From Curtobacterium sp. SGAir0471 (GTDB taxonomy: Bacteria; Actinomycetota; Actinomycetes; Actinomycetales; Microbacteriaceae), in contig NZ_CP027869.1 in NCBI RefSeq assembly GCF_005490985.1, positions 2,728,001 to 2,792,000 on the forward strand: a stretch of 64,000 bases of DNA, read 5' to 3'. Below the pieces are notes generated by a model, which had not been told where the DNA came from, ran no database searches, and worked only from the letters and a program-made list of their open reading frames with translations. Shown here piece after piece: positions 2,797-22,308 of the stretch. Position 1 is the first letter of the stretch. Each line of letters starts with the position of its first letter. A program made the position numbers and the translations under genes.

Positions 2797-2928
2797 CGCG
2801 GACAACGCGGTCTTCCACTGGCGTTGAGAGCAGTGCTACGGCGGGCCGCCGCGCACTGCACCCCTGTCACCTTGGCTCGATAGGATGTTTCCGTGTCCCA
2901 CAACGGGACGCACCCGGAAAGGAACCTC

Positions 2929-3438
2929 ATGCCGCAGGAGTACGCCCCGGTCACACCGGCGCCGCTTCCGCACGCTCAGATCCGAGACTGGGCAGAACGA
3001 GTCGGCGAGCACTACAAGATCTACGGCTCATCCGGCCACGCCGATCTCGACACGCTCATCAAGTCGCTGGGCGGCAGCATCGACTACCGAGACGGCGAGG
3101 AATCTCTTCGGGTTCGGGCCCGTCGGGACTTCACCATCTACCTTCCGCACATGACCTCGGCGCGGCGAGATCGGTTCACCCAGTCACATGAGCTGGGTCA
3201 CTATTTTCTGCATTACCTACTACCCGCGCGAGAAGGCGACATGGGATTCGGTCGTGGCGCCCGGAACGGAGCGGAGACGCAAGCCAACGTGTTCGCGTCG
3301 AGTCTGCTCATGCCGGAAAGCCACTTCCGCCGCGTTCATGAGCAAACCAACGGCGAGATCTGGCGGCTCGCTCAGCACTTCGACGTATCTCCAGATGCCG
3401 CACGAGTCCGCTGCGAAGTGCTGGGCCTCGGAAGTTGA
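2929..3438 (+). CDS. ImmA/IrrE family metallopeptidase
   Basis: A 169-residue zinc metallopeptidase of the ImmA/IrrE (COG2856) family. The family cleaves repressors or other regulators in phage-induction and DNA-damage responses. The HEXXH zinc motif is at residues 87-91 (SHELGHYFLHY), followed by the family's downstream segment with N/A/F residues (QANVFASSLLMP) that normally carries the third metal ligand region. I chose the ATG at 2929 because an AAGGAA ribosome-binding site sits 5-6 bases upstream; a GTG at 2893 would add 12 residues. Its stop overlaps the TTG start of the cyclase gene, which implies translational coupling. No XRE repressor partner is adjacent, which is unusual for this family. 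Confidence 0.88.
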   Translation: MPQEYAPVTPAPLPHAQIRDWAERVGEHYKIYGSSGHADLDTLIKSLGGSIDYRDGEESLRVRARRDFTIYLPHMTSARRDRFTQSHELGHYFLHYLLPAREGDMGFGRGARNGAETQANVFASSLLMPESHFRRVHEQTNGEIWRLAQHFDVSPDAARVRCEVLGLGS

Positions 3439-4466
3439 CCGGCAACTCCGACCAGGCGGATCCCCACTCACTGCTGTTCATGTCGGTCGACCTCGTCGGA
3501 TCGACCAGCTACAAGCAGCAAAAGGGCAGTGACTGGCCACGTAAGTTCTTGCAGTTCTACCGTGAATTCCCGCAAGCCCTCGCCGAGGTGCAAAGCGATG
3601 TCTCGTCGGTGCGATTCTCCATGTGGAAGCCGATTGGCGACGAGCTTATCTTCACGTGCAGGGTCAATCACGAAGCCGAGGTAGTGGACGCGGTGCGGAC
3701 GTGGCTGGCGGCGATGCGCCAGTACGAGGAACGGTCGCTTTCAGACGTGCCGCTGAAAACAAAAGGTGGCGCTTTCATCGCGACCTTCCCCGGTCCCGAC
3801 ACCCAAGCAACCGCTCCGCTGGACCCGTTCACGGAAACCTCTTCCCGCGATGTCCTCGACCTCAACGACGATGCGCTGCGAGAACGGGACCGGGACCGAT
3901 TCATCTACGACTACATCGGACCAAGCATCGATACCGGGTTCCGAATCCTCTCCGCCTGCGACCAGCGCTACTTCACGATGAGCATCGAAGTCGCTTGGGC
4001 GTTCAGCTGGGGCGTTCGCGGACTTCAGCAGAAATCGCCCGACATTGCGTACCTTGGCGAACGTGACTTCAAGGGGGTGTGGGGTGGCCGGCGATACCCG
4101 GTGGTCGCGATCGATCGCCAATTCGAAGATGCCGTCAACGAAGCGATACGTGGCATGAGCAGCACGGCCGCCGTCGACGTCGAGGCGCTCTGCAAGGCAT
4201 GTTTGGAATCCGAGGGATGGCCATCCCGAATGTATCTGCCGAAGTCAGACTTCGCTCCGTTCAAGCGGCTTCCCGAGGATGCACTGCGTGAACACCGCGT
4301 CCGAGACGTTGATGGAATTGAAAACGTCGCGACCGAGTTGGTACCCGCTCCCGCGAACGCCGAAATGTCACAGCTGCCGATGGGCGACGAGGACACGACC
4401 TCAGAGCCAGGTACGACAGGCACGCTTCCGCCGGCCGGAAGCATGCCTGAATCCTCCCTGGCGTGA
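3435..4466 (+). CDS. Class III-type nucleotide cyclase (Pycsar-like)
   Basis: A 343-residue protein with the hallmarks of a class III nucleotidyl cyclase. These make cyclic mononucleotides from NTPs with two Asp-bound metal ions. The first Asp is in SVDLVGSTSYK (D19) and the second in WKPIGDELIF (D69), the usual spacing. The D-x-V-G-S-T and K-x-x-G-D-E forms resemble the stand-alone cyclases of Pycsar anti-phage systems, which make cCMP or cUMP. Nucleotide specificity cannot be read here. The middle and C-terminal regions (residues about 120-270) are specific to this protein, and the last 50 residues look disordered. It starts with TTG overlapping the stop of the ImmA gene. No typical Pycsar effector (TIR or TM) follows, so the peptidase is the obvious candidate partner. 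Confidence 0.75.
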   Translation: MTGNSDQADPHSLLFMSVDLVGSTSYKQQKGSDWPRKFLQFYREFPQALAEVQSDVSSVRFSMWKPIGDELIFTCRVNHEAEVVDAVRTWLAAMRQYEERSLSDVPLKTKGGAFIATFPGPDTQATAPLDPFTETSSRDVLDLNDDALRERDRDRFIYDYIGPSIDTGFRILSACDQRYFTMSIEVAWAFSWGVRGLQQKSPDIAYLGERDFKGVWGGRRYPVVAIDRQFEDAVNEAIRGMSSTAAVDVEALCKACLESEGWPSRMYLPKSDFAPFKRLPEDALREHRVRDVDGIENVATELVPAPANAEMSQLPMGDEDTTSEPGTTGTLPPAGSMPESSLA

Positions 4467-4664: not shown

Positions 4665-5852
4665 TCAGGCACGAATATTGCCTTCGTCATGCGTGCATCG
4701 GACGTGGCGGGCGATATACGCCCACTTGAGTCGCGGGTGGTGGATTGGACCGTTCTGCGCAATGAGCCATCGCGCGCGAGGCATGAGGGACTCTTGGCGC
4801 GCAGTGGGAGCAATAGTACCGTGATGCGGAGCGAGGATCGTCATGTACCGCGCCCGCAGGTTCGGGTGCTGAAGCGATCGTCGAAGGCCAAACCCCTTCA
4901 CATCCCCCATTGCAAGAAGCCGTCCACTTGCGCTGGAAAGTACGAGACTTAGCTCGTTGTTCAAACCTTGAAGGCGGCCGAACAGCTCTCGTATCGGTTG
5001 AGACTCAGAGACGCCTCTTGTCGTAGCGACGCTTGAACTGGTGGCAAGGCCGTCCCCTAGCTCGCGAGTGCCACCGCGGTCGCCCCTGTCGCCATGGTCG
5101 CTATCGTTATATAGCGCGTCTTCCGACTCATCGAACGGGCCGGCAAGGTCGTTCTGAGCTTGCTTCCACGGGTCGAAGGTTTCACGTTCGCTGACGTCGA
5201 CCTCGATATCGGCTCCCCAGGACCTCCCGTAGGCTTTCCTGAAGGCCTCGTCGAGCCATCCGTTCTCCGGATGGTTCGCTAGTTCGCGGGCACGTCGGAT
5301 GAGGGTTGTTGCCCGTTTCCCCCAGCCGACGGGCAATACGGCGGGCGGCCATAGCACATCCCAGTCTTCTCCTGCCATGTGGAAGGACTGACCGGCTTGC
5401 TTAGGGCGCGGGTTTAACTTGACCCCTCGTGCCGCCCAAGCGTCAACCACCTCCGCCATGCTGCCCGCCGGGTACGCAGGCATATGGGTTGCTAGAGCAT
5501 GAAGCAGCGCGGGAACCCACCGGGCCGTCGCGGGCAGTTGCGGGTAAACGAACTCGAGAGACCCGCGCATGGCCGCCGATTGTGGCAGCAGCGCCGGCAG
5601 CGCCGCGAGTCCTTTCCAGTGGTCGGCGTCGAAGTGCGACACCGCAAGGCAGCGGAGTCGCGAGATACGCGGGAGGATCAGCGTCGCGAGCTGATGAGCT
5701 GACGGAGCGCCGGAGACGTCATGAAGGCTCCCGCAGTCGATGACCATCATCGAAGAAGTGCGGACACTATCGATCACGCTACAGGCGCCGTCGCCGACGT
5801 GGACAACCTCGACACTAGTCACGAGTTGTTCCAATTCCTCTCGTATGGGCAC
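4665..5852 (-). CDS. ComEC/Rec2-type MBL-fold hydrolase
   Basis: A 395-residue metallo-beta-lactamase-fold protein like the stand-alone C-terminal domain of ComEC/Rec2. Visible metal-site motifs are the early Asp segment VIDCGS (residues 37-42), HFDADH at 73-78, LLAMGDVKG and a late APHHG. No membrane segments are present, so it is cytoplasmic, unlike full ComEC. A low-complexity acidic insert (about residues 240-285, DNDSDHGDRGDRGG-like) is odd. Proteins of this type cleave phosphodiesters or other esters and occur in some defence-type operons. Here it converges on the cyclase gene, with about 200 bases between the two 3' ends. Confidence 0.7.
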   Translation of the reverse strand: MPIREELEQLVTSVEVVHVGDGACSVIDSVRTSSMMVIDCGSLHDVSGAPSAHQLATLILPRISRLRCLAVSHFDADHWKGLAALPALLPQSAAMRGSLEFVYPQLPATARWVPALLHALATHMPAYPAGSMAEVVDAWAARGVKLNPRPKQAGQSFHMAGEDWDVLWPPAVLPVGWGKRATTLIRRARELANHPENGWLDEAFRKAYGRSWGADIEVDVSERETFDPWKQAQNDLAGPFDESEDALYNDSDHGDRGDRGGTRELGDGLATSSSVATTRGVSESQPIRELFGRLQGLNNELSLVLSSASGRLLAMGDVKGFGLRRSLQHPNLRARYMTILAPHHGTIAPTARQESLMPRARWLIAQNGPIHHPRLKWAYIARHVRCTHDEGNIRA

Positions 5853-6023: not shown

Positions 6024-6662
6024 CTAACTGTTCCAGCTGTAGCCGGGAAGGTTCATGCTGGCGAGCACACGTTGGCGTTTCCAGCAGCCGGGGCAAGCAC
6101 CGCAGGGAAAGTTTGACCGGTGGCACGATGCTGTTTCGGCGATGATGTTTGCACCGAGGCCTGCGGCGACTAGCAGTTCTTCGGTGGTGTAATTGATGGC
6201 TGGGGCTGAAATACGGATGCCGCCTTCCTGGTAGGCAACCAGTGCATCCAGCAGCCGGTAGAACTCTTCGGTACCGTCGAGGTGCCGATCTCCGTCGCCG
6301 CGGACAGTCCCGAGCGCGATGGCCTCCGACCCAGTTTTCAAAGCCAACGCCGAAGCGGCTGTTGCGAGGAACTGGTTGCGATACGGCCACCATTCGGGAC
6401 TCGGAGCATCCTTCACTGCGTCTGCGTCGTCGTGCAGGATGCCCGATCCGAAGTCACGGATGCCGAGCGTGGCGACGTGCAGCCTAATGCCGTATTCCGT
6501 GGCGATTCGCTCGGCGGCACGTTGCTCCGTATGCGCTGGGCGTTGTCCATAGTCGAGATACAGCGCGTGCTGCGGACGGAGAAGCGCAGCGAGGGCGGAG
6601 CTGTCAAGGCCACCCGAGAGAAGCAGAAGCGTGTTGGGTTGCGAGTCAATCGACACGGGCAC
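6024..6662 (-). CDS. QueC-like 7-cyano-7-deazaguanine synthase, divergent
   Basis: A 212-residue PP-loop ATPase of the QueC family. Canonical QueC adenylates 7-carboxy-7-deazaguanine (CDG) and aminates it twice to preQ0. The PP-loop SGGLDS is at residues 16-21. Four Cys in the C-terminal CHRSNFPCGACPGC segment match the family's zinc site. It departs from canonical QueC where a VPGRN motif becomes WPYRN and the YPDCR motif becomes HLDGTEEF. This recalls the QueC paralogue of type IV CBASS (Cap9), which I know to use CDG for nucleobase-protein conjugation. It is the last gene of a four-gene overlapping operon; its GTG start lies 17 bases inside the kinase-NDT gene. Whether it makes preQ0 or a conjugate cannot be decided from sequence. 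Confidence 0.85.
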   Translation of the reverse strand: MPVSIDSQPNTLLLLSGGLDSSALAALLRPQHALYLDYGQRPAHTEQRAAERIATEYGIRLHVATLGIRDFGSGILHDDADAVKDAPSPEWWPYRNQFLATAASALALKTGSEAIALGTVRGDGDRHLDGTEEFYRLLDALVAYQEGGIRISAPAINYTTEELLVAAGLGANIIAETASCHRSNFPCGACPGCWKRQRVLASMNLPGYSWNS

Positions 6663-7881
6663 GTCTCCGACGCGGCGTGCCGAGGCCGATCCAAATGGCT
6701 CGGTAGAGCGCCGTCGTGACGTCCTGGTGCAGTTCGGCGTTCGTACCTGCGAGCATCGTTGTCTGGATGCCCCCCAGATTCGCGGCGACCCCGACGATCG
6801 GGATGTTGCGGGCTGTTGCCCATCCAGTTTCGAAGAGGGTCCCGGCGTCCCATCCGTCGAGTAGCGCCAGAACTACATCGCTGTCAGCGAGCCCGTCGAG
6901 GTCGGCTTGTGCCACTTCCTCAGCGCCGGGCCCGACGTCGTGGATGGGGCTGAAGACGTTCGCACCGGCTTCGAGAAGGAACATACGGCATGTGTCGACG
7001 AGCCATCGCTCGGCGACGGTGAAGAACGGGCCGGCCAGGTAAACCGTCGGCTGTCGGCCGTCGTTGTCGAGGTGCGTTCCCGTAAGCCCGTCAACGTCAA
7101 GTCCGGTCAGGAGTTGAGGTGGCAGCGCCATAGTGCGCGTCGAACAACACCATGCGGCTGCCCGGCTCGCAACGCGCGTTGCGTCCGTAGGGAACGCTCC
7201 GTTTCCCCACGCGTAAGCGAAGCCCGCTGAGAAGGCGTCCCCGCTTCCGATCTTCCAGACCTCGTCGGTAGGGATCGCACCGACCCACTGAGCGTCTTCG
7301 GCAGTTGCATCGACGACGAGGGCGCCTCGTGCGCCCGCCTTGACGACGACCACGTCGAGGTTCAGGTCGGCGATAGCTGCTCGCGCAGCGGCTTCGACGT
7401 CTTCGCGACGACCGATCGATCGAACTTCGCGCGCATTTGCGATGAGGGCGGTGGGACCGGCGGTGGAGCGCAACAGCTGATCGGTTCGTGCGTCGGTGAC
7501 GCTTTGCGGGTCATAAATCAGGCGTTCCGAAGTGACCGAGATATCGCCGTCCTCGATCATGCCAAACGCCAGCACGGTGTCGTCCGCGACGTGACATGGC
7601 TGCTCAAGTCGCGCGGGGCGGCCGCTGATGGATGGCTCAGCGAATGGCGCGAGGTAGTTGAACGAGATCGCGTGGTCGCGCGGGACGGACTCCCCCGCAA
7701 TGCCAAGCGTCGAGAGTCCTGAGCGGAAGAGTGCGTCCCCGGCGGCTTCAACGCTGCTCGTGAACGACACGTCGGGCATTCTGCTGAGCGCCGCCGCCGC
7801 GCGGAATCCGCTGCCACCGAGGTCCTCATGATGCTCCGGAGCCGTGACGCGCTCCTGGTAGGTGCCCCCTAAAATCTTCAC
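6646..7881 (-). CDS. PfkB-type kinase fused to nucleoside 2-deoxyribosyltransferase
   Basis: A 411-residue two-domain enzyme. Residues 1 to about 265 form a PfkB/ribokinase-like sugar or nucleoside kinase: a Gly-Gly segment near residue 23 (DLGGSGF), substrate-lid region, and the second PfkB signature KIGSGDAFSAG at 210-220 with the catalytic Asp in GSGD. Residues 280-405 form a nucleoside 2-deoxyribosyltransferase domain. It has the opening VYLAGPFF, then SDVVLALLDGWDAGT and FETGWATA, which holds the Glu expected as glycosyl-accepting nucleophile. The GTG start at 7881 overlaps the stop of the 105-aa gene by four bases. The fusion suggests base removal or exchange coupled to phosphorylation of the sugar or nucleoside. 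Substrate unknown; the operon suggests a 7-deazaguanine compound. Confidence 0.85.
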   Translation of the reverse strand: MKILGGTYQERVTAPEHHEDLGGSGFRAAAALSRMPDVSFTSSVEAAGDALFRSGLSTLGIAGESVPRDHAISFNYLAPFAEPSISGRPARLEQPCHVADDTVLAFGMIEDGDISVTSERLIYDPQSVTDARTDQLLRSTAGPTALIANAREVRSIGRREDVEAAARAAIADLNLDVVVVKAGARGALVVDATAEDAQWVGAIPTDEVWKIGSGDAFSAGFAYAWGNGAFPTDATRVASRAAAWCCSTRTMALPPQLLTGLDVDGLTGTHLDNDGRQPTVYLAGPFFTVAERWLVDTCRMFLLEAGANVFSPIHDVGPGAEEVAQADLDGLADSDVVLALLDGWDAGTLFETGWATARNIPIVGVAANLGGIQTTMLAGTNAELHQDVTTALYRAIWIGLGTPRRRRARVD

Positions 7882-8195
7882 GCAGCGCTCACTCGAAGCG
7901 TGATCGCGCCGGAAGTGCGGCTGACCTCCGCGAAGTATCGGAACCCAGCGCGGAGGCAATTGATGAGGCGTTGGTCCGGCATGACGGCGCCGGCAACTTG
8001 GCCTTCAGCAAGCACCGCCACGATCGTGGGGAAATCTCCTTCGACGAGTTGCAGGGTCAGAATGGTGCCATTACGTAGCTGATCGTCGAGGTGCGGGTCG
8101 GGCTGCTCGAGCGCCTTAAGAGTCGACACGCTGCCGCAGTCGTCTTCACGTCCACCGCCACCGAAATCAAGGTCCGGCCCCTCGCTACCACTCAT
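7878..8195 (-). CDS. Small hypothetical protein in the 7-deazaguanine operon
   Basis: A 105-residue protein that I do not recognise. The first 20 residues are Gly- and acid-rich (MSGSEGPDLDFGGGGREDD) and look flexible. The remainder reads as a compact alpha/beta domain with a strand-rich start (GTILTLQLVEGDFPTIVAVL) and a C-terminal strand. The ATG at 8195 has a good GAGGGGAC ribosome-binding site and overlaps the stop of the glycosylase-like gene in an ATGA; its own stop overlaps the next gene in a GTGA. Such tight coupling on both sides argues that it is real and works with its neighbours. It could be a scaffold, substrate or sensor subunit, but this is inference. Confidence 0.75.
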   Translation of the reverse strand: MSGSEGPDLDFGGGGREDDCGSVSTLKALEQPDPHLDDQLRNGTILTLQLVEGDFPTIVAVLAEGQVAGAVMPDQRLINCLRAGFRYFAEVSRTSGAITLRVSAA

Positions 8196-9013
8196 GACGT
8201 CCCCTCGTTTCTGAGTACTGTAGCGGGTTTCGGGTCCAGCAGTTGGGATCGGTTCGGAGAGGGCCTGCGACGTGCCGCAGCTGCCTGGTCCATCCACACG
8301 ACGGCGTCGAGATCTTGCGCGGGCACGCCGCCCACATCTGCCCACGAAATGAACGCTGACTCCATGAGCCGATAGTCCTTTGCCGGCGTCCATCTGCCGT
8401 CGAACACGCCGGCCTGGACGCCAGCACGCATGAGATGGATATCGATGATCGCTACGTCGGCAGATCCGAAGTGATTCCGGACGACCCAGCTCGCAGTCTT
8501 GAGTCCGACGCCCGGGAACGTCAGGAGCCATTCCCTTGCAGCGAGTGGCTCCGGCGGAGCTTGCTCGAACCGAAGTCGGTCGAGCGCGGCGGCGATACGA
8601 GCAGCCTTCTGGCGAGGAAATCGGTAGCGGAAGCTGCGCCCCGCATAGACGATCGGCTCGACCAGTCTTGAGTACAGCACTTCGGCGGACGCGGAGGAGC
8701 CTTCCGCGAGCAGACCAGCCGCACGAAGCGCGCGGAACGCTGCGACGTTCGCCTCGTACGTGATCCCATGGCCTCCGAGTAAACAGGCGACCACCTCTTC
8801 GGCGAAGGTCACGCCCAGGCGGTGGGGGGTGCGCGCAGTGGAAGCGCGGAGGAGCCACTCCTCGGTACGTGCGATCCAGTAGGCGGGCGATTGGAAGTGC
8901 CACGGTAATCCCCACCGGACTGGTCGCAAGGAACCGTCGATGAGCCGGAGTTGACGAACGTCTTCGGTCGGGCCGCCGCCGCCACTCGCATACGATCCAG
9001 TACAACGTGACAC
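8192..9013 (-). CDS. HhH-GPD DNA glycosylase homologue (OGG-like)
   Basis: A protein of about 273 residues with the helix-hairpin-helix plus Gly/Pro/Asp core of the HhH-GPD glycosylase/lyase superfamily. The segment LTFPGVGLKTASWVVRN (residues 164-180) contains the hairpin and the Lys (K172) used as lyase nucleophile by OGG enzymes. IIDIH at 189-193 holds the catalytic Asp (D191). HhH-GPD/OGG-like proteins also occur beside QueC-like proteins in type IV CBASS operons. I take the GTG at 9013 as start because the frame further upstream runs antisense into queD; the start remains uncertain. It is the first gene of the leftward operon and is divergent from queD, with about 115 bases of shared promoter region. 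Confidence 0.78.
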   Translation of the reverse strand: MSRCTGSYASGGGGPTEDVRQLRLIDGSLRPVRWGLPWHFQSPAYWIARTEEWLLRASTARTPHRLGVTFAEEVVACLLGGHGITYEANVAAFRALRAAGLLAEGSSASAEVLYSRLVEPIVYAGRSFRYRFPRQKAARIAAALDRLRFEQAPPEPLAAREWLLTFPGVGLKTASWVVRNHFGSADVAIIDIHLMRAGVQAGVFDGRWTPAKDYRLMESAFISWADVGGVPAQDLDAVVWMDQAAAARRRPSPNRSQLLDPKPATVLRNEGTS

Positions 9014-9127
9014 GACTCGACGGTAGCTCACAACAAAGCAACTGCGCGCGACCCGTGCCGCGACACGATCCACCGCCGACGTTCGCAATCGCTCGAACGC
9101 ATCGAAATTTGACCCAAGAGGGGGACC

Positions 9128-9475
9128 ATGAAACATAGCCTGACCCGCAGTTTCCGATTCGAGGCTGCACACGTGTTGCCGTGGCACCGAGGCAAGTGCT
9201 CGAGACTTCACGGGCACAGCTACCGCCTGGAAGTCACCATCACAGGTCCACTGGATGTGAACGGCATTGTTACGGACTTCGGTGAAATCCGGCAGATCGT
9301 GGATGCACACGTCGTACAGGTTCTCGACCATACTTACTTGAACGACCGCTTCGATAATCCGACCGTAGAGCTTGTCGCAAGCTGGGTTTTCGAGACGCTC
9401 GAGCCTCATTTGCGCGGGCTCACCTCGGTCCGGATGTGGGAGACCGCCGACTCGAGTGTGGCCGTGCACCGATGA
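9128..9475 (+). CDS. queD: 6-carboxytetrahydropterin synthase QueD
   Basis: A 115-residue enzyme of the PTPS/QueD family that converts dihydroneopterin triphosphate to 6-carboxy-5,6,7,8-tetrahydropterin, the second step to 7-deazaguanines. Zinc ligands are H15 in FEAAHVLPW and H28/H30 in KCSRLHGHSY. C24 is the catalytic Cys of the family's CxxxHxH motif. The later motifs VTDFGEI, LDHTYLND and PTVELVASW also fit. The ATG at 9128 follows a strong AGAGGGGGA ribosome-binding site. Its stop overlaps the queE start in ATGA. No folE lies in this window, so GTP cyclohydrolase I must come from elsewhere. Confidence 0.93.
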   Translation: MKHSLTRSFRFEAAHVLPWHRGKCSRLHGHSYRLEVTITGPLDVNGIVTDFGEIRQIVDAHVVQVLDHTYLNDRFDNPTVELVASWVFETLEPHLRGLTSVRMWETADSSVAVHR

Positions 9476-10179
9476 GAGACCGATTACACGTTTCGGAGAT
9501 TTTCACCTCCCTGCAGGGCGAGGGGCCGAGCCTGGGCGAGTACGCCGTATTTCTTCGACTGGGGCGATGCAACCTCAGCTGCAGCTGGTGTGACACCGCC
9601 TACTCGTGGGACTGGACGCGGTTCAACGAAGCGGAGGAGATCACCTCGATGCCGATCAGCGACGTAGTCGCGCACGTGCTGGCCATCAACCCGCGACCGT
9701 CTCTTCTCGTTGTCTCGGGTGGAGAGCCGCTTCTGCAGCAACCCGCGCTAACGCGACTTCTCGTGACGCTGAACGAGGCAGCGCCCGAATTGCGGGTGGA
9801 ATTCGAGACTAATGGCACTATTCGCCCATCCCGCATGCTCGCTACGCGAGCAAACCGATTCGTCGTGTCACCTAAATTGAGTAACAGCGACGTGCCTCTC
9901 GAGCGCCGGATACGGCCGGAGACCCTTCGGACGTTCGCCACGGCCGACGCAAACGCCTTCAAGTTCGTAGTGTCGAATGTCGAGGATGTCTCTGAGGTCG
10001 TGGCTCTCAGCCGAGAGGTCGGTTTCTCGCGAAATCGGGTGTGGTTGATGCCAGAAGGAGCGACTGAACGTCAGCAGCAGCGATCGATGCGCCTCCTCGC
10101 CGACGCGGCAATCAAGGAGGGTTTCAACTTCACGCCGCGCCTGCAGGTCATCCTTTGGGGTGACGAGCGCGGTACATGA
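9472..10179 (+). CDS. queE: 7-carboxy-7-deazaguanine synthase QueE
   Basis: A 235-residue radical SAM enzyme that rearranges 6-carboxytetrahydropterin to 7-carboxy-7-deazaguanine (CDG), the substrate of QueC. The N-terminal FTSLQGEGPSLGEYAVFLRL segment is typical of QueE. The cluster motif is C33-x3-C37-x2-C40 (CNLSCSWCDTAY). SGGEPLLQ, an SAM-contact motif, follows at about residue 81. Start at 9472 is fixed by the ATGA overlap with queD; the frame is open 36 bases further upstream. Together with queD it supplies CDG, presumably to the QueC-like protein encoded on the other strand. Confidence 0.93.
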   Translation: MRDRLHVSEIFTSLQGEGPSLGEYAVFLRLGRCNLSCSWCDTAYSWDWTRFNEAEEITSMPISDVVAHVLAINPRPSLLVVSGGEPLLQQPALTRLLVTLNEAAPELRVEFETNGTIRPSRMLATRANRFVVSPKLSNSDVPLERRIRPETLRTFATADANAFKFVVSNVEDVSEVVALSREVGFSRNRVWLMPEGATERQQQRSMRLLADAAIKEGFNFTPRLQVILWGDERGT

Positions 10180-10783
10180 CCCAGAACAGGCCACATACGG
10201 GGCGCGATGCAGTCGTCAATTCGTCGATTCGTCGGACGGCAGTCGACGATCGCAGTCTGCTGGACGCCGACCGCAGTGCGTGCGGCCTCAGCGTTGTTCG
10301 ACGGGTCGCTCTTGACAGAGACTTTGGGCCGAACATCCTGCAGTTGCTTTCGGCGAGCTAGCGCTCGCGGTGTGAGCGTTGCGCGGTCTCTAGACGCGAC
10401 GCGCACGCGGGGCCATAGAAGACCAACGCCACCTACCAGGCTGCGAACGCTGAAAAGACCGTGACCTCTATACTCGATGGCGCAAATCTCAGGGCAAATT
10501 TCTTCGCAACTCTGAGAAAGTAACGCGGCCTGCTGGCCGCGCTCTTCTAAGACCGGCCATGACCACCGACCTGACGTCTGCTGCCACCCGGTCGCCCTCG
10601 CTGGCGACCGGTGTCGCTCGACCCGCTGCGTCCCCGACGTTCCCTGGCGGGTGCCCGGACGCCGTGCGGCGAGACGGGAGCGCGCCGAGCGATTGCCATC
10701 GCAGCCGCCGCACCCGAGGATGACAGCAGCGGATGCGCCTTGTTCGCCCCTTCCAATCGCAACCCGAATCGACTGGACCGCGC
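10180..10783. other. Intergenic region before the SIR2 gene
   Basis: About 600 bases without a supported gene. It contains one GC hairpin (10524-10541). No promoter motif is certain; a TATACTCGAT-like stretch near 10467 could be a -10 element. Confidence 0.4.
10524..10541. terminator. GC hairpin downstream of queE
   Basis: A perfect 7-bp inverted repeat with a 4-base loop, followed by CTCTTCT. It lies 345 bases after queE and about 240 before the SIR2 gene. It may end queDE transcription, but the T-tract is weak. Confidence 0.35.
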
Positions 10784-12757
10784 ATGAGAAAAGCAGAGTT
10801 CCCGGGCACGGCGTGGGCTGACGTCGTGTTCACCGGCGCCGGAGTCTCCATGGGACCGCCGACCGCATTGCCGTCCGGAGCGGATCTGACGGCTGTGGCC
10901 TGGCAAGCGGTCCGCGAATCGCTACCTGATTACCAGGCCGTGCTTAGCGATGCGGCGGAGGTGATTTCGACCCCGACCGCGTCCGATGATGGCGGCCTGC
11001 GCCTCGAACACCTCATGAATCTCATTGATCGGGTGCGCGCAGATCGTCCGCTGGTCGAAATCTACGACCTCGTGAAGGGTGGGCAGCCCAACGAACTGCA
11101 CGCGCTGATCGCTGAGCTTCCTGCCCAGGTAGCGACGGTCAACATGGACCTTCTGCACGAGGCAGCAAGCCCTGGTGGCGTGAACGTGATGCATCTCCAC
11201 GGTGACGTCGACCACGAGGACCGGATCTCGACCACGATCGAGCAGTACCTCATCGGGGTTCCGGACGCACTTGCGGAGCCCTTTGTTGACGCCATCGCGG
11301 GTCGTCGCGTCCTTGTCGTCGGCTGGGGCTCCCGCGATCTCGACATCGTCGAACTGTTCCTCCGCCACCCTCCCGCAGCGGTACATCTGATTCAGCACGG
11401 AAGTGCAGAAACGCAAGATCCGCAGTTGAGTGACCCTGCACGGATCTTCCTGCAACGCGTTGCAGCTCAGACCCGGCATGGGGCAGCGCCCGAGGTGACG
11501 TGGCAGCAGGCGGACGCCACCGAACTGCTTCGCACCGCAATGGGCCGCGAGCAGGAACGGCTGCACCCGGCCGATGCTCCGCGCCGCCGCGACTGGCCCG
11601 TGCCCGAACGGGCCGCGCAGGCGCTCGGCACCCTCTCCGAATCAGCGCGAGTAGCTGCCGCCATCCGTGTGCTTTTCGCATCCGGCGAGCACGAGGCGGT
11701 CATTCGGATGGCCGTCCTGGCTCGACGGCGCGGTGCAAGCAACGACGAGATCGAGACGAACCGCGGCCGATCCCTACGGAAACAGGGCCAGCACCGAGCC
11801 GCGCTGATGGCGTTCCTCTCCCTGCGCGGACGGGAAAACGGACCTAGGCCACGACCGCACCCGAACGAGATATCTGCTCTGCTCCCAGCGTTTGGACTAC
11901 AGCGCGCCAGCACCATCTTCGACACTGCGCTAGTGGCGCGGGCCGTACGTCGCGGCCAACGCGCGGAGGAGGTGTTGCCGCTGGCACGGCGAGTGCAACT
12001 GCTGAACGTGCGCGGGCGGATTCGCGACACGGCGTTCGACGCGGAACGAGTCTGGCAGTTGAGTAACTCACTAGGGCCCCTTGGGCTCGGCAATCAGATC
12101 GACGCAATCACGTGGTCCGCAGACGCGCTGAAGCTGCAGGGTCGCTTCGAGGAAGCGATCCGGCGCATCAGCGAGGCATCCGACCGGATCCCGTACAGCA
12201 ACCCATCGCAGTCGGCATGGGCGATGTGGAAACTGGCGGAATTGCAGCTCCTCGCCGGCCGGCCGGCGGAGGCGCTACAGACGCTCGACAGGGCCCTGCC
12301 GGACGTCCGGCGGGCGGCGGAGGCTTCTATCCGTTTCTGGATGCTCAGCACCCGAGCGGACGCAGAGCGAACCGTTGACCCTACCGCCGCGCGCGGACAT
12401 CTCGCGGAGGCGGCGCGGATCAATCCCCGCGATCCGGAGTCCCACGCGTACTTCCGGCTGATCGCGGGCTCCTTAGACGCGGCCGAAGGGCGACACAGCT
12501 CCGCAACTCAGCACCTCCTCGCCGTTACCCGGATGGCTCGTTCCCCGTTGCGGCCTATCGCGACCGCGCTGGTGGCTGCGAAGCTCATCCGGATCGCGTT
12601 CGCATCAAGCCCGAGCGCCCATGAGTTGCGTCGCATCGCGCGTCGCTCGTACCGCATCGGTTTAGATGGGGGCGGTCAGCGGGCCGCTTCGATGCTTCTG
12701 GCGTTTGAGGATGGCGAGGACCTCACGCAGTTCCTGGCGCTTCCCATCCTCATGTGA
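10784..12757 (+). CDS. SIR2-domain protein with helical-repeat C-terminus
   Basis: A protein of about 657 residues. The N-terminal 200 residues form a SIR2-like NAD-binding domain: VVFTGAGVSMG (residues 14-24), TVNMD (118-122), HLHG with the likely catalytic His (137-140), and VLVVGWGSRDLDI (176-188). SIR2 domains of this kind act as NAD-depleting effectors in several anti-phage systems (Thoeris ThsA, DSR, SIR2-pAgo). The remaining about 450 residues are Ala/Arg/Leu-rich helices in TPR-like pairs, probably for partner or phage-protein sensing. There is no TM segment. ATG at 10733 is an alternative start 17 residues upstream. It follows the queDE arm in the same direction and may be the killing arm of the 7-deazaguanine module, though a separate single-gene defence is equally possible. 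Confidence 0.75.
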   Translation: MRKAEFPGTAWADVVFTGAGVSMGPPTALPSGADLTAVAWQAVRESLPDYQAVLSDAAEVISTPTASDDGGLRLEHLMNLIDRVRADRPLVEIYDLVKGGQPNELHALIAELPAQVATVNMDLLHEAASPGGVNVMHLHGDVDHEDRISTTIEQYLIGVPDALAEPFVDAIAGRRVLVVGWGSRDLDIVELFLRHPPAAVHLIQHGSAETQDPQLSDPARIFLQRVAAQTRHGAAPEVTWQQADATELLRTAMGREQERLHPADAPRRRDWPVPERAAQALGTLSESARVAAAIRVLFASGEHEAVIRMAVLARRRGASNDEIETNRGRSLRKQGQHRAALMAFLSLRGRENGPRPRPHPNEISALLPAFGLQRASTIFDTALVARAVRRGQRAEEVLPLARRVQLLNVRGRIRDTAFDAERVWQLSNSLGPLGLGNQIDAITWSADALKLQGRFEEAIRRISEASDRIPYSNPSQSAWAMWKLAELQLLAGRPAEALQTLDRALPDVRRAAEASIRFWMLSTRADAERTVDPTAARGHLAEAARINPRDPESHAYFRLIAGSLDAAEGRHSSATQHLLAVTRMARSPLRPIATALVAAKLIRIAFASSPSAHELRRIARRSYRIGLDGGGQRAASMLLAFEDGEDLTQFLALPILM

Positions 12758-13748: not shown

Positions 13749-13844
13749 ATGAGAATTGAAAGTTCGACGTCCGGTATTGCAAGAATTCCGGGGCAATTTC
13801 GCATCACCGAGCTTGTTGGGACCGATGGGCGTCGGTCAGAATGA
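13749..13844 (+). CDS. Possible 31-residue leader peptide
   Basis: A short frame that starts at ATG 13749 behind a GGGGGAT stretch and ends in an ATGA overlap with the HAD gene. The peptide is hydrophilic (MRIESSTSGIARIPGQF then RITELVGTDGRRSE). The frame is open back to 13617, so a 75-residue version is possible. The overlap suggests translational coupling to the cluster. It could be a leader peptide, a peptide substrate or chance. I see no known precursor-peptide motif. Confidence 0.3.
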   Translation: MRIESSTSGIARIPGQFRITELVGTDGRRSE

Positions 13845-14539
13845 AACCGGTGTTGCGTTGCGATCTGGGGCGCCCGAGGGCCTTACTTTTCGATCTCGAC
13901 GGGACAATCGTCGACACGGAAACCGCCTTTCGTGATTCCTGGTTACGAGCGGGATATGAATACGGGCTGCAAGCAAGCGCCCTTGACGTTGACAAGGTGG
14001 CGGCGAAACAGCTCGACGGCTTATCGACGGCCGAAGCTTTGTTTGGAATCCACGAGGAAAGTCTTCTTGTCGCGATCGCGGGGTTCGCGCACGACTATCG
14101 CCAGAAGGCGAGGAAGACGCTCGAGCTTTTGCCAGGCGTGGAGGACTTCATACTGAGCGCTCGCGGTAGCTCGGTTCGAACTGCACTCGTCACAAACGCC
14201 CCAGCCTGGCGCGTCCAAGAAGTTTTCGCAGGAGTGAAATTGACGACTGGACTGGATCTAGCCACCCTCTTCGACGTTGTCGTTCACTCCCATCACCGAG
14301 CACGTCCCAAGCCGGCTCCTGATCTCTACGAGGAGGCGGTGCGACTTCTCGATGTGCCGCCCGCCGTCGCTTTGGCATTTGAAGACTCCGTTACTGGCCT
14401 CGCCGCCGCGACCTCAGCGGGGGTGCGCTGCGTGCATATCCTGCAGGATTGCGGCCGAAGTCGCTGCATCAGGTACGCGGCTGCGTGCTTCCCTAACTTC
14501 ATGACGGCAGCAGCGCACACCGAAGAGGGGTCAATGTGA
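13841..14539 (+). CDS. HAD-superfamily phosphatase (beta-phosphoglucomutase-like)
   Basis: A 232-residue HAD hydrolase. Motif I is FDLDGTIVDTE with the nucleophile Asp and the DxD acid/base pair. Motif II is LVTNAP, motif III the Lys in RPKPAPDLYEEA, and motif IV FEDSVTGLAAA. The helical cap between motifs I and II (about residues 30-95) places it in the PGMB-like subclass that acts on small phosphates or sugar phosphates. It is the first enzyme gene of an overlapping operon, and its stop overlaps the GTG start of the glycosyltransferase. In a nucleoside or glycoside pathway it would remove a phosphate from an intermediate; the substrate is unknown. Confidence 0.82.
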   Translation: MKPVLRCDLGRPRALLFDLDGTIVDTETAFRDSWLRAGYEYGLQASALDVDKVAAKQLDGLSTAEALFGIHEESLLVAIAGFAHDYRQKARKTLELLPGVEDFILSARGSSVRTALVTNAPAWRVQEVFAGVKLTTGLDLATLFDVVVHSHHRARPKPAPDLYEEAVRLLDVPPAVALAFEDSVTGLAAATSAGVRCVHILQDCGRSRCIRYAAACFPNFMTAAAHTEEGSM

Positions 14540-15534
14540 GCCGTAAGAGCCAGCCTATCCATTTCCTCACTTCTGACGGCACGACCGAGCGACGAACTCG
14601 CGCAGCACTGACCCCTGCACCAGAACTCACGCAAGACCTAGACGCTCGGTTGCAGCGGATTGCCATCGTCATACCCGTCCTGAACGACCGACGGGTACAT
14701 CAATGCCTCGATTCCATTCGAAACGATCTTGTTTCGGTGGTGATCGTGTCCAATGGGAGTACCAACGAGTTCAACGAAGAGCTGCGGCAGATTGAACGGC
14801 CGAATGTTACGATTATCACTTCACGCACGGCCGGAATTGGGCCTGCCTATAATCTCGGGATAGCACAGACGGACAAACCCTGGATTCTCCTGATGGACGC
14901 GGATTGCACGTTTGAGCCAGGCGCAGTGGAAGCGCTGGCGGCAGGCATGGATCTCGCGGACTTCGTGCGTGGGCGGGTTGTGTTCGATGAGAAATCTATT
15001 GAGACCTCTATACCTGCCAGGGCCCGCAGGTTCACGGAGGACGCACTGCATTCGCGCCGGATAACGGCGTATAGCCCACCTCTGCTATACCGCAAAGACG
15101 TCGTTGCGCTAATGGGCGGATACCATTTTGATGATCGGCTAGCATGGAGAGAAGACCGGGAGTTCGAGCTCCGGCGGCGCTCAGCGGGAATCGCCATCGC
15201 GTTCGCCATGGCGGGCGTGATACACCACGCACCCTTGAGGATCGCAGCGGATCTTCGGAGTCTTCGGTCATATGGACGAAGTGAAGCTGTGGGCCGAGCA
15301 CTCGGACTCTTTCCAGCTGAACCCGCCCGATCGCGTGCTGCTAAGACTCTCCGCACCGCTTGGCGAGTGCTCTACCGAGATCACGCACCGGACGCAGCGG
15401 CGTACATCTTCGTTCGAAGGCTGGCGTTCAGCATCGGTCGTCTGGAGCAGATGTGGACGATTCGCATGCAGAACGCTCAAGATGGCAGCATCGTATCGAA
15501 TGCTTTGTACCCTCGGAGAGATAGACGTGGGTGA
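14536..15534 (+). CDS. Glycosyltransferase family 2 protein
   Basis: A 332-residue GT-A glycosyltransferase. After about 45 variable residues come IAIVIPVLND and VVIVSNGSTN, the nucleotide-binding strands. AYNLGIAQTDKPWILLMDAD follows, with the D-x-D metal site in MDADC. The acceptor region has WREDREFELRRR (ED motif). No TM segments are present, so it is cytosolic or peripheral. The GTG start overlaps the HAD stop (GTGA), and the gene ends 8 bases inside the NUDIX gene. It probably adds a sugar from a nucleotide-sugar donor to a small molecule or lipid-linked glycan; donor and acceptor cannot be inferred. Confidence 0.8.
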   Translation: MSRKSQPIHFLTSDGTTERRTRAALTPAPELTQDLDARLQRIAIVIPVLNDRRVHQCLDSIRNDLVSVVIVSNGSTNEFNEELRQIERPNVTIITSRTAGIGPAYNLGIAQTDKPWILLMDADCTFEPGAVEALAAGMDLADFVRGRVVFDEKSIETSIPARARRFTEDALHSRRITAYSPPLLYRKDVVALMGGYHFDDRLAWREDREFELRRRSAGIAIAFAMAGVIHHAPLRIAADLRSLRSYGRSEAVGRALGLFPAEPARSRAAKTLRTAWRVLYRDHAPDAAAYIFVRRLAFSIGRLEQMWTIRMQNAQDGSIVSNALYPRRDRRG

Positions 15535-16072
15535 GATGGACAAGAAGTTCGACCAGGATCTCTTCAAACCTGTTCATTGGCCGTGGGCCCAAGTTCGTGT
15601 CCGCTTTTGGAGGACGATGCCGGACCCGGAGTATATTCAAAGCGTCCATCTCGTCTGCATTGTAGACGATGCTGCAGGATCAATCGTGATCGTGCGCGAA
15701 GCCGCAGGTCCGTTCACCCTGCCAGGTGGCACACGAGAACCGGCCGAGACACTCGAAGACTGCGCACGGCGCGAACTCGTGGAGGAAGCAGGCGTGACAG
15801 CCGTCGGCCAGTTTCATTGGGTGGGGGCGCACGTCGGCATCGGGTATAAAGACCGGCCGTATAGGGACCATCTCCCGCACCCGTTGAAGGCTTGGGCTTG
15901 GGGCGTTGTGAGAGTAACGCATACGGGAAACCCTTCCAATCCGCCCGGTGCAGAGCAGATCGTGGAGGTCCGCAACGAGCCGATCGAGAATGCGAAAAAG
16001 CTTTTAGCCGAGCGCGACTATTGGTATCCAGCCCTCGTTGATGAGGCTGTAGCGCATTTGCGACAACAATGA
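15527..16072 (+). CDS. NUDIX hydrolase
   Basis: A 181-residue NUDIX-fold hydrolase that would cleave a nucleoside diphosphate linked to another group. The NUDIX box is visible as G-x5-E-x7-RELxEExG: GTREPAETLEDC followed by ARRELVEEAGV. I chose the GTG at 15527 because GGAGAG lies 6 bases upstream; ATG at 15536 is an alternative. It overlaps the GT2 gene by 8 bases. In this operon a NUDIX enzyme could trim a nucleotide-linked intermediate or clear toxic products. The substrate is unknown. Confidence 0.83.
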   Translation: MGEMDKKFDQDLFKPVHWPWAQVRVRFWRTMPDPEYIQSVHLVCIVDDAAGSIVIVREAAGPFTLPGGTREPAETLEDCARRELVEEAGVTAVGQFHWVGAHVGIGYKDRPYRDHLPHPLKAWAWGVVRVTHTGNPSNPPGAEQIVEVRNEPIENAKKLLAERDYWYPALVDEAVAHLRQQ

Positions 16073-16085
16073 TAGGGGACCTGCC

Positions 16086-16670
16086 ATGGCAGTGCTTTCA
16101 CATGAAGATGACCCTTGGGCGGGGAGACGGTCCGTCCGCGGCTACCCCCTCGACGAATTGATCTCAGCCCTTCAGAAGCTCATCAGACGTTGCGAGATGG
16201 AGGAAGCAATCTTGGTCGCCCGCGAACTATGGGAAACGGGCGAGGATGTTGAAGACAAGCTTTGGGAGCGGCTTCGCGTCATTTCGGTGGAAGACCTTGG
16301 AGGGTCTGAGCCCCTGGTGATGCTGGAGGTGCAGACGCTAAATTACTTGCGAACTAGCCTCCCTCCCCGTTCACGTGACCGTTGGCTAATGGCTGTGCAG
16401 GCGGTGCGTCGACTGGCTGAGTTGCCAAAAGACCGGTCCACGGACGACATTGCGGCTTGGGCGATTCTGATGCTCACAACTGGCCGACGGAAGCCCACTA
16501 TTCCGGACTACGCGCTTGATGTTCATACCAGGCGGGGTCAGCTGGCAGGCAAGGACTCACTCGATTTCCTCCGATCGAGTGCGAAAGTCGGCCTGCAAAG
16601 TTCGAGTTACGACGATCGTTACTGGCGGATGCTTGTGGAGGCGGCGGAAGAGGGGGTCTGGAATGACTAG
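16086..16670 (+). CDS. Stand-alone RarA/MgsA C-terminal-like protein
   Basis: A 194-residue helical protein. The stretch LWERLRVISVEDLG (about residues 58-71), then PKDRSTDD and PDYALDVHTRRGQ, matches the C-terminal helical domain of RarA/MgsA clamp-loader-related ATPases. The AAA+ module is absent. RarA acts at stalled replication forks, but isolated C-terminal domains have no established role known to me. An AGGGGAC ribosome-binding site precedes the ATG. The gene overlaps the nucleoside hydrolase by 8 bases, so it clearly belongs to the operon. It is an unexpected member of a small-molecule cluster. Confidence 0.65.
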   Translation: MAVLSHEDDPWAGRRSVRGYPLDELISALQKLIRRCEMEEAILVARELWETGEDVEDKLWERLRVISVEDLGGSEPLVMLEVQTLNYLRTSLPPRSRDRWLMAVQAVRRLAELPKDRSTDDIAAWAILMLTTGRRKPTIPDYALDVHTRRGQLAGKDSLDFLRSSAKVGLQSSSYDDRYWRMLVEAAEEGVWND

Positions 16671-17655
16671 TTCACGACAGCGCCGATCGGTGATCATAGA
16701 CTGCGATGCCGGCGTAGACGACGGCTTGGCTCTTGCATACTGCGCATCCGTGGCGCCCGCACGCATCGCTGCTGTCACGACCGTCGCAGGAAACAATCGA
16801 GCTGCTGTAAGCGCCCGGAACGTACGTCTCCTCCTGCGCCTGCTGGGGCTACCGGAAACGATTCAAGTCGTTGCGGGGGCGGAGCGAATGCTTCACGGGC
16901 GCAGGCCGGACACGGCTGAACTCGTTCACGGTGATGATGGCTTGGGAGGGCAGGCGGAAGCTATGGGCTTGCCTGAGCAGGCGGAAGCCGTGCAGTCAGC
17001 CGCAGCTGAGTTCCTCGTCACCTATGCGCGGTCCCACGGTCCTGTGACGATCGTCGCTCTCGGTCCACTCACGAACCTCGCTCTCGCCCTGCAGCGAGAC
17101 CGTCAGCTGCCCGACTTCATCGATCAAGTCGTGGTGATGGGGGGGGCCGTCGAGCATCCCGGCAATGGAAGCCCCACTGCGGAGGCCAACATTCGCAACG
17201 ACCCGCAGGCAGCCAATGTCGTTTTGAACGCTGGCTGGAACATCACGATGGTTCCTCTTGACGTCACCATGCAACACCGACTCACCACATGGGATGCCGC
17301 GCGTCTCGCGAGTTCTAGAAACGAAGCAGTACGCCTTCTCGCCAGGGCTTCCGAGACGTACTTGACTTTCCACGAGGGGCGCCACTTCGCTGAGCGTGAG
17401 GGGGCGCTCCACGACCCGGTGGCAATGGCAGTCGCGCTCCGTCAGGTCGAGCTATCCCTCGCGCCGCACATGCACGTCGTCGTTGACGAACGCGAAGGTT
17501 TGACGTACGGCATGACGATAGCTGACGGGAGACGCAAATATCTCGGCTACCCCCTGAATGGTAATGAGAATTGCCGGGTCGTGCTGCAGCTGAACGATGA
17601 CTTCCGACCAGCCTTTGTTGATGCTCTGATGCACCTCGAGCCGGTTGCACGATGA
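16663..17655 (+). CDS. Inosine-uridine preferring nucleoside hydrolase family
   Basis: A 330-residue nucleoside hydrolase. The calcium-binding N-terminal motif DCDAGVDDGLAL (DxDxxxDD) sits at about residues 13-24. GNN, the long helical middle, the NIRNDPQAAN active-site loop and a late HDPVAMA with the catalytic-type His-Asp follow. The family splits N-ribosides into base and ribose. Start at 16663 is set by an 8-base overlap with the preceding gene. Its stop overlaps the MFS gene in ATGA. In context it may free a nucleobase for re-glycosylation by the GT-B enzyme two genes downstream; this is inferred. Confidence 0.9.
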   Translation: MTSSRQRRSVIIDCDAGVDDGLALAYCASVAPARIAAVTTVAGNNRAAVSARNVRLLLRLLGLPETIQVVAGAERMLHGRRPDTAELVHGDDGLGGQAEAMGLPEQAEAVQSAAAEFLVTYARSHGPVTIVALGPLTNLALALQRDRQLPDFIDQVVVMGGAVEHPGNGSPTAEANIRNDPQAANVVLNAGWNITMVPLDVTMQHRLTTWDAARLASSRNEAVRLLARASETYLTFHEGRHFAEREGALHDPVAMAVALRQVELSLAPHMHVVVDEREGLTYGMTIADGRRKYLGYPLNGNENCRVVLQLNDDFRPAFVDALMHLEPVAR

Positions 17656-18866
17656 ACGCCGGATACGGATCAGTCCTGAGGGATACCGGAGCGTTGTCGT
17701 TCTTCGTCTCGGCCGGGCTGGGCCGGCTTGGGATCGCGATGACCAGCTTGTCACTCGTGTGGCTGGTGCACGAAGCAACCGGTTCTTTCCTTCAGGCGGG
17801 GATCGTGACAGGCGCGTTCGCTCTGTGTGAGGCGATCGTCGGCCCTCTACTTGCTCGACTTGTCGACCGGTACGGACAATCAAAGGTCCTTCCTGCTCAG
17901 GTCACCGTGCACCTCTGCCTCGTAGTGACGCTAGTGCTCGCTGCGCGTTCGGCCGCGGACGTTCCGGTTCTCGTGATTCTCGCCGGCGGCGTTGGTGCCA
18001 CGATCCCGCAATTTGGCGCACTGTCAGCAGCGAGGTGGTCCTTCCTGCTACGCGACACCCCATCGACGCTACAGCGCGCATTCTCTCTCGAGTCGATTGC
18101 GAACGGGACCGTCTTCCTTATCGGACCAGTAGTGGTCAGTATCTTGGGCGCTTCCGGGCTGGCCGTAGTATCGCAGTTGGCTGCGGGAGGTTTGATCTTT
18201 GTTGGCGGCGTGAGCTTAGCGCTGCTTGTAGGCACGGCTCCTCCGACGGCGGCAGGCCGACACACCAGGGCTAGACGGGCACGCGCCTTTGGACAGGCTG
18301 TTGTGGCACTAATCTTGATGAATCTCGCAATTGGTGCTTACTTCGGCTCGATCCAGGTCTCCGTGACGGGATTTGCTGTCACGGCTGGACAAGAGGGCCT
18401 CGCAGCGGTGGTGTTTCTCGTAGGAAGCTGCGCCGGGCTGTTTGGCGCCTTCGTGTACGGCAGGATCACGTTCAAAGGCGGGCCTGCGAATCGAACAGTC
18501 GTTCTCGCTTCGATATTCGCGGCACTCACTGCACTACTGCTCCTGGCGACCAATATCCCCACACTCCTCCCGATTGTACTGGTCACCGAGCTGCTGGTGC
18601 CACCGTTGCTGGTGAACCTTAGTGTGTTGATGGAGAGGGTGGCCGACCCGAATGCTCTAACACAAGCGTTTACTTGGGCAAATTCGGCCAGCGCGGCTGG
18701 TGCCGCGGTAGCCGCATCGATCGCTGGGGCGTTGCTGGACGCGCACGGCCGGTCGGGCGGCTTCTACGTGGTCATCGCTGGAGCTCTGCTTCTCGCGATT
18801 CTGGCGATTGTGAGCAGACCTGCCGCTATGCGTGCCCTGCGGGAAAGAACGGGAGTTGAATCGTGA
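17652..18866 (+). CDS. MFS transporter (probable exporter)
   Basis: A 404-residue integral membrane protein with about 12 hydrophobic segments and a central basic loop (RHTRARRARAFG, around residue 200). This is the pattern of drug-efflux-type major facilitator proteins. A MFS-type loop with acidic and basic residues (RLVDRYGQSKVLP) lies after TM2. Translation is coupled to the nucleoside hydrolase through ATGA and to the next gene through GTGA. In this cluster it would export the final product or provide self-resistance. No substrate can be read from the sequence. Confidence 0.85.
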   Translation: MNAGYGSVLRDTGALSFFVSAGLGRLGIAMTSLSLVWLVHEATGSFLQAGIVTGAFALCEAIVGPLLARLVDRYGQSKVLPAQVTVHLCLVVTLVLAARSAADVPVLVILAGGVGATIPQFGALSAARWSFLLRDTPSTLQRAFSLESIANGTVFLIGPVVVSILGASGLAVVSQLAAGGLIFVGGVSLALLVGTAPPTAAGRHTRARRARAFGQAVVALILMNLAIGAYFGSIQVSVTGFAVTAGQEGLAAVVFLVGSCAGLFGAFVYGRITFKGGPANRTVVLASIFAALTALLLLATNIPTLLPIVLVTELLVPPLLVNLSVLMERVADPNALTQAFTWANSASAAGAAVAASIAGALLDAHGRSGGFYVVIAGALLLAILAIVSRPAAMRALRERTGVES

Positions 18867-21147: not shown

Positions 21148-21299
21148 CGTCACCCCTAATAGTCGATTTGTGACGCTCACCGCTGGTGACGTCCGAACGA
21201 GTCCCGCTCTCGTCGATCGTACGCATGCTAGGCGCGGAACGGTATAGACACGGTCATTTGAGAGGCGTAGTCTCAGAATGAATTGATCGAGGGGGATCT

Positions 21300-22307: not shown

Positions 22308-22308
22308 G

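Follow-up and report, generated by a model that had tools for sequence, protein, structure and literature searches.

A candidate mobile anti-phage module with a putative QueC-like ligase and a glycine-tailed candidate acceptor protein in Curtobacterium

Overview of the module

The 64,000-nt stretch of Curtobacterium sp. SGAir0471 analyzed here (contig NZ_CP027869.1, positions 2,728,001 to 2,792,000; hereafter the window) belongs to a genome consisting of a single contig of 3.53 Mb. It carries a compact set of genes for a helix-hairpin-helix (HhH) protein, a 105-aa small protein, a fusion of a PfkB kinase with a nucleoside 2-deoxyribosyltransferase (PfkB-NDT) and a QueC-like enzyme. On balance, we favor reading these four genes as a mobile anti-phage module, in which the QueC-like enzyme would deazaguanylate the small HIRAN-like protein. 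This reading draws on the linkage of the genes, the conservation of the small protein's tail, its predicted fold, the active-site residues that are kept, the lack of another visible user of 7-carboxy-7-deazaguanine (CDG) and the defense genes in the surroundings. The genes concerned and their closest neighbors, in window coordinates, are as follows.

6024..6662, minus strand: putative Cluster 4 QueC-like ligase, 212 aa; PF06508 at 95.4 bits; SGGxDS ATP loop, EWWPYRNQ, HxDG and four zinc Cys
6646..7881, minus strand: PfkB-NDT fusion; PF00294 and PF05014 above cut-off; GTG start
7878..8195, minus strand: 105-aa small protein, candidate acceptor; disordered Gly/Ser tail (MSGSEG...) and HIRAN-like barrel
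8192..9031 (start uncertain), minus strand: HhH protein, like the 8-oxoguanine DNA glycosylase (OGG)-type glycosylase-lyases; PF22175 at 43.2 bits
9128..9475, plus strand: QueD; TIGR03367 at 95.2 bits against a cut-off of 89.25
9472..10179, plus strand: QueE-type radical SAM enzyme with CxxxCxxC and an ATG start; the top NCBIfam matches are QueE models, all below cut-off
10733..12757, plus strand: SIR2-TPR protein; SIR2_2 at 24.0 bits, just under the cut-off of 24.5; TPR_12 above cut-off

The minus-strand genes are transcribed in the order HhH, 105-aa gene, PfkB-NDT and QueC, and neighbors overlap by a few bases. The ATG of the 105-aa gene is at 8195 with GAGGGG upstream of the start codon, and the GTG start of PfkB-NDT overlaps the stop of this gene. 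The HhH stop codon occupies 8192-8194; its start candidates are GTG 9013, 9031 or 9073. The first-pass annotation of this DNA had listed the HhH gene, 105-aa gene, PfkB-NDT and QueC, the divergent queD-queE pair and a SIR2/helical-repeat gene, and all of them are present at the locus.

Conservation of gene order

A genome scan with the window QueC gave 98 loci, and the best 80 were surveyed, near-identical Methylobacterium copies included (L numbers designate loci). They come from Actinomycetota, Bacteroidota, Pseudomonadota, Verrucomicrobiota, Planctomycetota, Geobacter, metagenome-assembled genomes (MAGs) of Eremiobacterota, Bryobacterales and Myxococcales, and one haloarchaeon. Five loci end at a contig edge upstream, which leaves 75 usable for the gene-order count. 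The gene map has the order small protein, PfkB-NDT, QueC in all 75; the counting script flags 73 of these, the other two being L017 and L043 with a fragmented PfkB-NDT. With this linkage, the association of the small open reading frame (ORF), PfkB-NDT and QueC is not due to chance. In the 80-locus survey, the small-protein gene and PfkB-NDT overlap by a median of 4 bases. The neighborhood search that the first-pass annotation proposed thus returns a conserved core, and this core is not queD, queE and queC alone: QueC is conserved together with the other genes, and queD/queE join it in some cases only, namely in L120 and in 7 of the 80 loci besides the window.

Other genes join the core less regularly. 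The HhH gene is present in 57 of the 80 loci, a nitroreductase-like gene in 30 and a deoxyguanosine triphosphatase (dGTPase)-like HD gene in 17, inside the operon in 8. Of the 73 flagged modules, 18 lack HhH and 6 of these have a dGTPase inside the operon, compared with 2 of the 55 that have HhH. Since dGTPase is enriched where HhH is absent, the two may replace each other. L120, a module from the same genus, contains HhH, small protein, PfkB-NDT, QueC, queD/queE and a nitroreductase-like gene, the last with an own-profile match of 1.2e-27 and no Pfam match.

In L050, L051, L054, L055, L065, L066, L070, L072, L073 and L112, queC is followed by a further small-protein gene and a further PfkB-NDT, which indicates that the two genes duplicate as a pair. 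A 245-aa protein, nucleotidyltransferase-like by eye and without a Pfam match, follows the dGTPase gene in several loci (L016, 10946-11683, and relatives).

The QueC-like enzyme

The window QueC scores 78 bits against the canonical QueC model TIGR00364, about half of its cut-off of 150.3. A profile search of the PDB matches both QueC structures and structures of Cap9, the QueC-family ligase of the type IV cyclic oligonucleotide-based antiphage signaling system (CBASS). The ATP loop and the four zinc Cys are conserved in 67/67 relatives. Asp117 of Cap9 reads the guanine edge of CDG (PMC13279940, excerpts), and the aligned Asp is kept in all 67 as well. The Cap9-like motif YxQ(x)5E is found in 65 of the 67 module QueC and in 1 of 13 canonical QueC. 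The canonical YxQxHxxE shows the reverse distribution (0/67 and 11/13), and HxDG stands in place of YPDC. Module QueC form a clade of their own against the 13 canonical sequences with support of 100/99, and the nearest relatives of the window enzyme are mostly from Microbacteriaceae. The window QueC fits 'Cluster 4' of PF06508 and carries the motif of this cluster, CH(x)5CxxCxGCxK, as CHRSNFPCGACPGCWK. It reads YGQ(x)5E, while the excerpts of PMC13329287 print YGQ(x)6E for Cluster 4, possibly by another way of counting. The alignments contain the window protein plus 31 of the 37 listed QueC, 21 of the 46 listed PfkB-NDT, 20 of the 22 listed HhH and 59 of the 66 listed small proteins.

The glycine-tailed small protein

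The small protein has no Pfam, NCBIfam or PADLOC match. Its tail starts with M-[S/G]-G in 117 of the 120 homologues listed from a total of 144; the search profile includes the tail, so full-length starts are favored among them. When no choice of start is allowed, M[S/G]G opens 58 of 73 distinct locus ORFs compared with 31 of 1457 other ORFs. The small protein of viral contig L111 reads MGGSGGGFSPS from an internal start, and the CD-NTase of the type IV CBASS control locus L121 (one locus) starts MGGSGGGFFSN. At the sequence level, the tail resembles the MGGS tail of CD-NTase. In L011, L014, L060 and L089, the small protein apparently has two barrel copies after one tail, as judged by eye.

The barrel following the tail is predicted to be HIRAN-like from a structure model and a fold search. 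The predicted fold is common to the small protein and the HIRAN domains of HLTF and Rad5, but identity is only about 12%, and the Pfam HIRAN model has no match at E 0.1 among 60 members. The HIRAN domain of HLTF binds DNA ends, as in the titles of the matched entries. The modeled barrel suggests that the small protein may bind DNA ends too.

PfkB-NDT and HhH proteins

The NxxE, GSGD and GTxxExG motifs of PfkB-NDT are conserved in 67 relatives, so that the kinase and transferase motifs are intact. The HhH profile is closest to 8-oxoguanine DNA glycosylase/AP lyase structures, and the active-site Lys and Asp of OGG-type enzymes are kept in 48/48 relatives. Judging from these residues, HhH may be a DNA-acting output, and dGTPase may take its place in loci such as L016 and L086. 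In the plasmid modules L083, L084, L085 and L088, the immediate neighbor of HhH is a DNA adenine methylase gene of the same strand. The arrangement could mean that HhH is connected with DNA marking.

Supply of the base

Genomes belonging to 42 of the 80 loci were screened for the tRNA-guanine transglycosylase (TGT) family; the screens for QueD and QueC covered the same 42 and the window's own genome. QueE was sought in 24 genomes, PTPS in 17 and the Vut_1 transporter in 16 as well as the own genome. The own genome has no match to TGT (PF01702), and the control search was positive in 14/14. It also has no second QueC and no Vut_1 transporter, and its sole QueD is the module QueD. This leaves no other visible user of the CDG made by QueD and QueE. 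With TGT missing and a single QueC, no complete queuosine pathway accounts for these genes as housekeeping. The first-pass annotation had seen neither TGT nor folE; the absence of TGT extends to the whole genome, while FolE is encoded elsewhere in it.

Other genomes give a similar picture. The module queD is the only QueD in 8/8 searched genomes with linked queD/queE (own, L002, L004, L005, L006, L009, L010 and L012), and TGT is absent in 7 of the 8 genomes with module-linked queD/queE, the genome of L004 having one. In L011, L014 and L035, actinobacterial modules without queD/queE, a Vut_1 gene comes directly after queC. In the Roseivivax plasmid module L087, Vut_1 follows the nitroreductase gene and is annotated with queuosine salvage. 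No locus matched by the searches has queD/queE and Vut_1 together. In at least 13 loci, the window, L120 and L087 among them, the module includes one or the other, which provides an independent clue to the base used.

Mobility and neighboring genes

A QueC relative is present in 25 plasmid records; the match is at least as good as E 2e-24 in 24 of them and weak in 1, and 12 of the 25 are typed as conjugative or mobilizable. Relatives also occur on 4 viral contigs. All three core genes are present in the 8 plasmid and 4 viral loci examined. The small protein is found in 3 of 299 genomes of the same family: the own genome, that of L003 and one of the same genus.

Genes with defense annotations are seen near many modules. 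These are an 'anti-phage deoxyguanosine triphosphatase' near L083 and L086, a TIR protein near L084, multiubiquitin and ThiF near L085, a CD-NTase near L060 (PADLOC 2e-138), patatin and CD-NTase near L038 (6e-123), AAA_15 and DUF4435 near L067, an AriB match at L045 (2.5e-31), ThsB-TIR near L027 and Mrr near L090. The CD-NTases near L038 and L060 are neighbors of the module, not core genes. In a flank test with PADLOC at E 1e-15, 140 flank proteins matched 246 families, and 32 families were matched by 128 control proteins taken from 20 of these genomes. The proteins were a seeded draw of 140 of 392 flank and 128 of 247 control proteins with duplicate loci left out, and the control regions were centered on weak QueC-model matches rather than random positions. 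In the control regions L091-L110 at least one protein matches QatA, QatC and QatD, so one of these regions may contain a Qat system.

The SIR2-TPR gene is a neighbor outside the conserved module. The first-pass annotation had considered SIR2 a possible effector, and this finds no support. The window protein has zero tblastn matches (E 1e-3) in the other 80 loci, and L120 lacks SIR2. It occurs in 2 of 299 same-family genomes and coincides with the small protein only in the window's own genome.

The G+C content of the window is 62.3% in 1-39000 and 71.6% in 39001-64000, and tRNA-Arg (36664) and tRNA-Ser (39337) lie close to the change. From this shift and the nearby tRNA genes, window 1-39000 is likely a genomic island. 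At 2893-4466 on the plus strand, two genes overlap: one encodes an M78 peptidase that matches capP in PADLOC (1.8e-24), the other a 343-aa protein. The stretch SVDLVGST of the latter, which has no match in the Pfam scan, is reminiscent of class III cyclases. A 395-aa protein (4665-5852, minus strand) adjoins queC on the same strand. Its fold appears metallo-beta-lactamase-like by eye; it has no Pfam or NCBIfam match and is not recurrent in the other loci. Window 13841-23886 contains HAD, glycosyltransferase, NUDIX, nucleoside hydrolase, MFS, UDP-galactopyranose mutase, epimerase and SCP2-Rieske genes.

Proposed mechanism and alternative explanations

The ligation, the kind of base used by each host, what PfkB-NDT and HhH do, the binding to DNA and the defense phenotype are inferred from these observations, and we propose the following course. 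7-Deazaguanine carboxylate would be supplied by QueD and QueE or, elsewhere, by a host pathway or an importer. Removal of Met1 from the small HIRAN-like protein would expose a free N-terminal amine on Ser2 or Gly2. The Cluster 4 QueC would activate the carboxylate with ATP and couple it to this amine. PfkB-NDT would act on the free or protein-bound base by sugar transfer and phosphorylation, and the product of deoxyribosyl transfer with subsequent phosphorylation would be a deazaguanosine phosphate bound to the protein. The modified small protein would then engage DNA or DNA ends and license a DNA-acting output, the OGG-like HhH in the window and dGTPase in some relatives. The first-pass annotation had CDG attached by the QueC-like enzyme to a protein, a nucleoside or a nucleic acid. 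Attachment as such is supported, and among the three the evidence favors a protein, namely the 105-aa product, which had not been singled out. An extension of this scheme is quite doubtful: QueC would provide the N-terminally attached 7-deazaguanine, NDT the 2-deoxyribose and PfkB the phosphate of a protein-linked nucleotide, and the lysine chemistry of HhH would swap the tail into phage DNA, crosslinking the HIRAN-like protein.

Several observations weigh against the conjugation of CDG to the small protein and against a defense role. At position 127, where both Cap9 and canonical QueC have Tyr, 64/67 module QueC have His, and the Cys that follows the Asp in those two is Gly in 67/67 module QueC, so the substrate may differ from CDG. 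QueD is absent by two models from 9 of 43 module genomes; two of the nine have a module-linked Vut_1 (L014 and L035), three have Vut_1 elsewhere and four have neither, namely three MAGs (L003, L007 and L037) and the genome of a Ramlibacter isolate (L015). Known acceptors expose Gly2, and the small protein is mostly Ser-Gly at this place. The Foldseek matches to HIRAN have E values of 0.02-0.12, none reaching 0.001. Type IV CBASS and Qat as published have no counterpart of PfkB-NDT in the excerpts of PMC13279940. The PADLOC flank test scores families rather than proteins; type I restriction models inflate its outcome, and its control holds Qat matches. The exchange of the base-stacking Tyr for His and the nine genomes lacking QueD would also suit a defense module whose QueC attaches a group that is not a 7-deazaguanine to the small protein, and QatC may be such a case. 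The guanine-edge Asp kept in 67/67 and the queD/queE or Vut_1 genes inside at least 13 modules make this unlikely.

Purine or deazapurine salvage has been proposed in print for Cluster 4 (PMC13329287, excerpts). QueC and PfkB-NDT would then process free bases or nucleosides, with the small protein as a regulator or scaffold, and PfkB and NDT are indeed nucleoside-type enzymes with intact motifs. We regard salvage as rather unlikely, because it leaves the strictly kept glycine tail unexplained and the module is sporadic (3/299), resides on plasmids and viral contigs and lies amid defense genes. The OGG-like HhH with its Lys and Asp, together with the methylase genes beside HhH in four plasmid loci, could instead reflect DNA base modification or a nucleoside natural product, with a 7-deazapurine built and then inserted or exported and HhH aiding the exchange. 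With no TGT-family match in the genome and no recurrent biosynthetic or export genes around the module, this appears very improbable. Ordinary queuosine biosynthesis would account for adjacent queD, queE and a queC homologue. It can hardly apply to a genome without TGT (control positive in 14/14) and to a QueC that lacks the canonical motifs and scores about half the canonical cut-off.

If conjugation to the small protein is correct, the module would be a further nucleobase-protein conjugation defense system, spread across many bacterial phyla and haloarchaea, in which the acceptor candidate, often the base supply and extra nucleoside enzymes are all encoded together. A QueC group labeled 'purine salvage' would become a testable ligase-acceptor pair, and a 105-aa acceptor is well suited to mass spectrometry.

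Comparison with known systems

No earlier description of the gene set was found in the literature searched, the coverage of which is incomplete. The DNA 7-deazaguanine modification (Dpd) system differs from the module in needing DpdA, a TGT-family transglycosylase, and the window genome has no PF01702 match. Cluster 4 of PF06508 was described in Biochem J 2026 (PMC13329287) with a PfkB-PF05014 neighbor in about 89% and frequent helix-turn-helix neighbors. The motif CH(x)5CxxCxGCxK and the PfkB-PF05014 neighbor are common to Cluster 4 and the window module; the small protein, HhH and a defense role are not mentioned for this cluster in the excerpts of that paper.

A 2025 report described the conjugation of a nucleobase to a protein in one defense system, and such conjugation has been proposed for a second. 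Cap9 of type IV CBASS joins CDG to Gly2 of the CD-NTase, a residue exposed in a tail that starts with MGGS (PMC13279940 and PMC11996544, excerpts). As in this system, the gene for a short QueC-family ligase in the module lies close to that of a protein whose N-terminus is flexible and rich in Gly, and the CDG-reading Asp of Cap9 is kept. The acceptor is CD-NTase in type IV CBASS, whereas the candidate in the module is the HIRAN-like small protein. No PADLOC cyclase match was found in ten window proteins, the genome as a whole not being searched, and CD-NTase is missing from the core map of the 80 loci. Type IV CBASS also has the TGT-family Cap10, unlike the module's genome, and the module has an obligatory PfkB-NDT and often HhH, nitroreductase or dGTPase genes.

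The qatABCD system is likewise a small set with a QueC-family enzyme and a protein with a disordered tail and an N-terminal Gly motif. QatB starts with MGTS, and this motif is required for defense (PMC13279940, excerpts). QatC has extensions that the 212-aa module QueC lacks, and QatB is helical while the module acceptor candidate is a small barrel. Neither QatA nor QatD has a PADLOC match in the ten window proteins; this was not a genome-wide search and QatB was not sought by name. The principle of conjugation is already known from type IV CBASS, and the module is most likely a further defense system of this sort, with a new acceptor. By this comparison, the module appears to work like type IV CBASS and Qat, yet we would class it under neither.

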